Part shown: in pieces, positions 54,925 through 62,341 of the stretch | How the letters are laid out: every line of letters starts with the position of its first letter | Position numbering within the stretch: position 1 is the stretch's first letter | From: Candidatus Bathyarchaeota archaeon | GTDB lineage: Archaea; Thermoproteota; Bathyarchaeia; 40CM-2-53-6 | Direction: 5' to 3' | Length of the DNA: 64,000 nucleotides | NCBI GenBank assembly: GCA_005888735.1 | Contig: VBBN01000028.1 | Coordinates: 62,001 to 126,000 of the forward strand | Notes under the pieces: model-generated | Told to the model about the DNA's origin: nothing | The model's input: only the letters and a program-made list of their open reading frames with translations | The model's database searches: none | Position numbers and translations under genes: made by a program

Positions 54925-55053
54925 TGGTGCGGGAGGTGGGATTTGAACCCACGAACCCCTGCGGGACAGGCGCCTCAGGCCTGCGCCTTCAAAGCCCGTA
55001 CGAAAAGGGCTTCTTTGACCTGGCTTGGCAAAACGGGCAACACCGTCTCCCGC
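54925..55053 (-). tRNA. tRNA-Leu(GAG), CCA encoded, two non-canonical introns (55032..55046 and 54987..55012)
   Basis: Spliced: GCGGGAG TT GCC AAGCCAGGTCAAA GGC G CAGGC CTGAGGC GCCTG TCCCGCAGGGGTTC GTGGG TTCAAAT CCCAC CTCCCGC A CCA; all stems pair; class II variable arm; A73. Confidence 0.88.
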
Positions 55054-55261
55054 GCACGCGACCAGGCCGTCCTCCCGCACATAAGCCCCCGGCACGCAAC
55101 AAGGGCCCATATTGGCTTTCCCGTCATCCACAAAAACAAGCACAAGACAACCGCCAACGGGAAAAACGTTTAATGCCCCCGCAACCCCGCCGCACCCCAA
55201 CGCTCAATAGCCCGAGCCAACCAAACACGACTATTCAAGAAAAAAGCGAGATGAGGATGGA

Positions 55262-61688: not shown

Positions 61689-62216
61689 AGGCAGCCTAAC
61701 GAATGGGGGGTTGGCCACTTAAAATCGTGCCCTTTGTCGGATTGGTGAAGCCTGAGAATCGTTACGCGCCATCCCGTTCACGGGTAACGACAGAGTTAGA
61801 ACAATTTTCGACGCCTAAGTGTGTCACGAGTGGCGTCCCCCGGGAACGGACACTTGCCATTCGCCCGTCAAGGGCTTGGCTGGTCCGCACCCACCGCCAC
61901 TCTCGTTCTCATCTCTTCTCAAGTCACCTTCCCCGCTCGGGCCTAATTACTTGAGACGCAGTTACTCGAATGACGTTCTCAAGGAGAGGAAACACGCACG
62001 ATCATTCATCGAAGACACAAACCAGACCCAAGAAAAACTATCCGTCCGAGGTCCCTCCCGGGAGCAGCTCCGTAATTAGGACTGGAGACCCAAACGTGAT
62101 AGATGAATCGTCGAAGCCGGACAGGCACTTGACCCTAGTGCGGCCGGAGACTCTGGAAGCAACGTATCCGGTAACGTGGTTTTCAATGGGAATATGGAAA
62201 GGAGGTAGGAGGGTTG

Positions 62217-62341
62217 TGGCGCCGGGAGTGGGATTTGAACCCACGCGGCCCAAGGGGCCACAGGCTAACAGTCGCCCTGATTTTCCAGGCTTGGGCCTGC
62301 TTCGTCGCAGACTGCCCGGTACCAGGCTCCGGAATCCCGGC
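62217..62341 (-). tRNA. tRNA-Ser (inferred GGA), CCA encoded, intron at 62291..62311 and about 16 extra nt at 62267..62282
   Basis: Acceptor GCCGGGA:TCCCGGC, G73, D-stem CCGG:CCGG, class II variable arm GTGGCCC-CTT-GGGCCGC, T-arm GTGGG TTCAAAT CCCAC; spliced anticodon arm CAGGC CTGGAAA GCCTG. Confidence 0.82.

Follow-up and report, generated by a model that had tools for sequence, protein, structure and literature searches.

How a serine transfer RNA (tRNA) gene whose anticodon arm is interrupted twice could be turned into a mature tRNA, and in which order the two insertions would be removed, is the question raised by a locus in the 64,000-nucleotide stretch of DNA analysed here (the window; positions 62,001 to 126,000 on the forward strand of contig VBBN01000028.1, from the assembly GCA_005888735.1 of a Candidatus Bathyarchaeota archaeon). 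The minus-strand segment 62341..62217 of the window reads as a tRNA-Ser(GGA) gene split by two very short introns. In the reading that is proposed here, and that is held to be very probably correct, this is the sole tRNA-Ser(GGA) found, and its two short bulge-helix-bulge (BHB) introns would be removed by an (alpha-beta)2 splicing endonuclease, intron 1 first and intron 2 thereafter.

The tRNA-Ser(GGA) gene and its predicted mature form

The gene spans 62341..62217 on the minus strand, with G73 and an encoded CCA included, and is read in the direction of that strand as GCCGGGATTCCGGAGCCTGGTACCGGGCAG - TCTGCGACGAAGCAGGCCCAA - GCCTGGAA - AATCAGGGCGACTGTT - AGCCTGTGGCCCCTTGGGCCGCGTGGGTTCAAATCCCACTCCCGGCGCCA, the insertions being the second (21 nucleotides) and the fourth (16 nucleotides) of these blocks. 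The sequence and the coordinates are those given by an earlier note on this DNA, made from the letters alone, and the minus strand is confirmed. The parts of the gene are the following:

62312..62341, minus strand: exon 1, nucleotides 1-29, GCCGGGATTCCGGAGCCTGGTACCGGGCAG, conserved across 34 genes of the order
62291..62311, minus strand: intron 1, 21 nucleotides, TCTGCGACGAAGCAGGCCCAA, at position 29/30 in the anticodon stem, placed by its BHB and by comparison with relatives
62283..62290, minus strand: exon 2, nucleotides 30-37, GCCTGGAA, containing the anticodon GGA, placed by exon-by-exon parsing of relatives
62267..62282, minus strand: intron 2, 16 nucleotides, AATCAGGGCGACTGTT, at the canonical 37/38 position, with a relaxed BHB, placed by exon-by-exon parsing of relatives
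62217..62266, minus strand: exon 3, nucleotides 38-76, AGCCTGTGGCCCCTTGGGCCGCGTGGGTTCAAATCCCACTCCCGGCGCCA, comprising the 3' strand of the anticodon stem, the long variable arm, the T arm, the acceptor, G73 and CCA

The boundary of intron 2 is uncertain by one nucleotide, because the first base of the intron and nucleotide 38 are both A.

Removal of both introns leaves an 88-nucleotide class II tRNA that ARAGORN in its default mode calls Ser(gga), and that shows the features of a class II tRNA-Ser(GGA), namely a cloverleaf with a long variable arm, the anticodon GGA and G73. This call, together with the relatives described below, bears out the identity put forward in the earlier note, an 88-nucleotide class II tRNA-Ser(GGA) with G73. 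In the same default mode the program makes no call on the unspliced form nor on either of the forms that retain one intron; in intron mode it returns Ser(gga) with one intron for either single-removal form and, wrongly, Arg for the unspliced one. Across the whole raw window no tRNA is reported by ARAGORN or by Rfam at its gathering threshold, this locus included.

The genome to which the window belongs was searched by T arm and acceptor, with the anticodons assigned by hand, and four serine-type tRNA genes were found in it, with the anticodons GGA (the gene in the window), TGA, GCT and CGA. A second complete tRNA-Ser(GGA) had been named in the earlier note as the finding that would speak against its proposal; no such copy was returned by these T-arm and acceptor searches of the draft genome, which is 93% complete.

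Intron positions and the motif of intron 1

The gene was used as the query against 41 genomes, and a pattern search was made over 250 genomes of the class. The 41-genome search recovered full-length orthologues in the window's family and order, and both insertions occur at identical places in 34 genes of that order (the window counted, all parsed exon by exon), with intron 1 ranging from 14 to 32 nucleotides and intron 2 from 11 to 34 nucleotides. Both introns are also present, at the same positions, in seven genes, one per genome, of family f20, which belongs to another order of the class. In family f14 some genes carry the 29/30 intron alone and others carry neither, the genes of family f11 that were examined carry the 37/38 intron alone, and neither intron is seen in G104, G116, G120 and G122 (all f14) or in G043. 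The claim that the 16-nucleotide insertion sits at the canonical 37/38 position is upheld by the same site in the 34 genes, with which the intron-less relatives agree. As for the claim that a 21-nucleotide intron at 29/30 separates CAG from GC, a natural counterpart is provided by genome G026 of the window's order, whose gene (L150) is without the 29/30 intron and runs from GGGGCAG directly into GCCTGG, its junction CAG|GC being the one predicted for the spliced product of the window. This one member of the order has lost the first intron.

The motif of intron 1, GGGC-AG^T-CTGC-GACGAA-GCAG-GCCC-AA^G, is located at 62317..62290 and combines a central helix, in which GGGC (nucleotides 24-27) pairs with GCCC in the 3' part of the intron, with the bulges AG^T and AA^G and an inner helix CTGC:GCAG. 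All four central pairs are present in 36 of 38 genes, and cutting of the 3-nucleotide bulges after their second nucleotide would give the mature stem CAGGC, in agreement with the intron-less G026. The central helix undergoes a compensatory change from GGGC:GCCC in one group to GAGC:GCTC in f14, and in f20 it takes the form of GAGC with GCTC, GCTT or GTTC, with four pairs in six of the seven genes. Free covariation is seen in the inner helix, where CTGC:GCAG, CCAC:GTGG and TTC:GAA are among the pairings. Counted across 34 distinct contexts, 228 of 238 pairs of the motif form, the maximum reached in 2000 row permutations being 209. This permutation result and the recurrence of the same sites in 34 genes together indicate that the two-insertion pattern lies far beyond chance. 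The outer (exon-exon) helix has at most one pair in the genes of the window's order as against four pairs in f14, and since it is missing in the window's order, the motif has to be regarded as a relaxed form and not as a strict hBHBh'. The near-perfect BHB that had been claimed for intron 1 thus stands as far as the central helix, the bulges and the inner helix are concerned, but does not extend to the outer helix.

Several side observations concern serine tRNA genes and the relatives that carry them. Going by sample labels, the Bathyarchaeia relatives come largely from soil. In two relatives of the class, G083 and G066 (loci L158 and L159), the tRNA-Ser(GGA) has the 37/38 intron and, in its D loop, an additional insertion. 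At L112 4770..4885, on a contig assigned to the Thorarchaeota (OWC3) but likely mis-binned, lies a two-intron tRNA-Ser(GGA) that closely resembles the genes of RBG_13_38_9-type Bathyarchaeia. In the window's own genome, the tRNA-Ser(TGA) gene (L166, minus strand, in the region of C5:45340) has a 29/30 intron of its own (GCGCAG|TTCCCG...GCGTA|GGCC), and its D arm seems to hold another one or two insertions, which would possibly make it a three-intron tRNA.

Intron 2 and the probable order of removal

For intron 2, the canonical register sets exon nucleotides 32-35 (CTGG) against intron positions -6 to -3, with a mean of 2.88 pairs out of 4 compared with 1.74 for shuffled introns, the observed value being reached in none of 1000 shuffles. 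The relatives mostly have three of the four central pairs, with a recurrent mismatch at U33, and in this register one f11 gene, L155, pairs without any mismatch (CTGG:CCAG). Moving the register by one base gives nearly as high a score (2.81), so that intron 2 may pair in either of the two. These comparisons suggest that intron 2 uses a degenerate, BHB-like pairing that is clearer in the relatives than in the copy of the window, where only two pairs are formed, which explains why no strict BHB could be drawn for the 16-nucleotide piece in the earlier note; a strict BHB is indeed not found, but the degenerate pairing of exon nucleotides 32-35 with the 3' part of the intron had gone unseen there.

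Two PF01974 proteins are encoded in the window's genome. One of them (alpha; L144:1474-2043, minus strand) aligns over its length with the endonuclease chains of A. pernix and S. tokodaii and retains the active-site Tyr, His and Lys; a further Lys aligns with K44 in the crenarchaeal loop of A. pernix, a residue that has been reported to be necessary for broad specificity (PMC6379350). The second protein (beta; L145:1204-1785, plus strand) is without the Tyr and the His. By this comparison the genome encodes the catalytic and the structural subunit of a putative (alpha-beta)2 splicing endonuclease, which is the arrangement expected for relaxed motifs.

In the pathway proposed here, for a gene that is presumably expressed, the two-subunit endonuclease most likely cleaves intron 1 first, at the BHB built on nucleotides 24-29, following which ligation of the exons would restore the anticodon stem 27-31:39-43. 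With this outer helix in place, nucleotides 32-35 (CTGG) could form a helix with the 3' portion of intron 2, allowing the same endonuclease to excise it at 37/38. We infer that intron 1 goes first from one structural argument, because the BHB of that intron engages nucleotide 27 and has nucleotides 28-29 in its bulge, the stem being split meanwhile. It has to be noted that several points weigh against this proposal: the case is made from DNA and not from transcripts; the central helix of intron 2 in the window is weak, as the canonical register gives two of four pairs; the genome is an incomplete draft, from which another GGA copy may be missing; and thermodynamic folding of the unspliced, partly spliced and mature forms mostly gives no cloverleaf. 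As this last failure extends to the mature tRNA, which serves as the control, the folding is uninformative and speaks neither for nor against an order of splicing.

A different possibility, less favoured than the sequential pathway though by no means far-fetched, is that both introns are excised independently and in any order, the removal of intron 1 being no prerequisite for that of intron 2. Endonucleases of the crenarchaeal type cleave relaxed BHBs without flanking helices (PMC4307357, PMC6379350), and exon 2 and intron 2 could by themselves form a weak 32-35 helix closed by 30-31:39-40; what stands against this is that the outer helix 27-31:39-43 stays incomplete as long as it is interrupted by intron 1 and nucleotides 24-29 are taken up by the BHB of that intron, which is a purely structural argument. 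It is unlikely that the order is instead set by a switch, in which an AGGCT-like strand of intron 2 would temporarily pair with nucleotides 38-43 and mask the 3' splice site for as long as intron 1 is present. Such a strand is found in several families of the window's order, where 16 of the 26 distinct exon 2/intron 2 contexts have at least five pairs between intron 2 and nucleotides 38-43, compared with an average of 2.5 in shuffles; however, the sequences are related and the counts not independent, the pairing is weak in the window itself, with four pairs, and the strand is missing from all seven two-intron genes of f20. Being enriched in the window's order yet missing from f20, the placeholder strand is therefore to be treated as a lead only, and the compound version, an obligatory order in which intron 1 splits the helix needed by intron 2 while the placeholder strand of intron 2 masks its own 3' splice site, appears a shade more improbable still. 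Another pairing, which the earlier note had suggested between the two introns, CAGTC (nucleotides 28-29 with intron 1) with GACTG (intron 2), is present in just 2 of the 34 genes and was rejected as a general device. That the locus is a decayed pseudogene or a tRNA-like fragment (e.g. an integration-site remnant) with random insertions might be suspected from the silence of ARAGORN and Rfam on the raw window and from the draft state of the assembly, but this is strongly disfavoured by conservation and seems almost certainly wrong, given that 34 genes of the order share the exons, intron sites and BHB pairings, that compensatory changes are seen more widely in the class, and that the own genome yielded no other Ser(GGA) gene.

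Leucine-type loci and comparison with known systems

Outside the serine genes, a tRNA-Leu(GAG)-like gene is seen in the window at 54930..55060 on the minus strand, with CAGGC CTGAGGC GCCTG, a long variable arm, a T arm and CTCCCGCACCA. It has extra sequence in the region of the D arm, including an AAGCCC...GGGCTT hairpin, was missed by ARAGORN and Rfam, and probably carries two introns too. Elsewhere in the same genome (L172; C37:92576-92598, minus strand, and upstream) stands the 3' half of a tRNA-Leu, GCGCAGGCCCGAGGCGCCTG...CTCCCGCACCA, with C for T at position 33 and no 5' half visible, which may be a fragment. At L169, within 175 bases upstream of position 1500 on a short contig, a run of N lies beside an inverted tRNA-Leu-like copy (variable and T arm).

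Returning to the tRNA-Ser(GGA) gene, which is preferably read as spliced at intron 1 and then at intron 2, we have here a seemingly essential tRNA that escapes ARAGORN and Rfam and whose two-intron anticodon arm is conserved over two orders of uncultured Bathyarchaeia; the natural series of genes with both introns, either one or none should be useful for the study of intron gain and loss in archaeal tRNAs and of whether their splicing has to follow an order. The processing of archaeal precursor tRNAs with multiple introns was reportedly studied in vitro (Tocchini-Valentini, 2009). Intron positions reviewed for archaea include 29/30, and multiple introns, relaxed BHB motifs, hBH and HBh' motifs, and canonical and non-canonical introns within one gene have all been described (PMC4090602), the known maximum being three introns per tRNA (PMC4033280).

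The multi-intron tRNA genes of Thermoproteales and Caldiarchaeum (PMC4090602, PMC4033280, PMC3293823) likewise go with a two-subunit splicing endonuclease; the gene described here differs from them in belonging to Bathyarchaeia, in having both introns in the anticodon arm, and in that one intron lies inside the stem that the motif of the other would need. Single anticodon-stem introns such as those of A. pernix tRNA-Trp and a S. tokodaii tRNA-Leu (PMC4307357) share with intron 1 the kind of insertion site, in keeping with the listed 29/30 position (PMC4090602), and the placing of the exon-intron junctions after the second bulge nucleotide (PMC4307357). In those two tRNAs splicing has been confirmed, by complementary DNA (cDNA) or enzyme assay (PMC4307357), and one intron is described, whereas here a 37/38 intron coexists with the one in the stem. 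The tRNA-Ala of Caldivirga (PMC4090602) has the same 29/30 anticodon-stem junction, but is made from split genes joined in trans, whereas the introns of the present gene lie in cis. Since the 29/30 position, multi-intron genes and relaxed BHBs have all been described already, the tRNA-Ser(GGA) gene of the window is best regarded as a well-conserved new example of a known arrangement.
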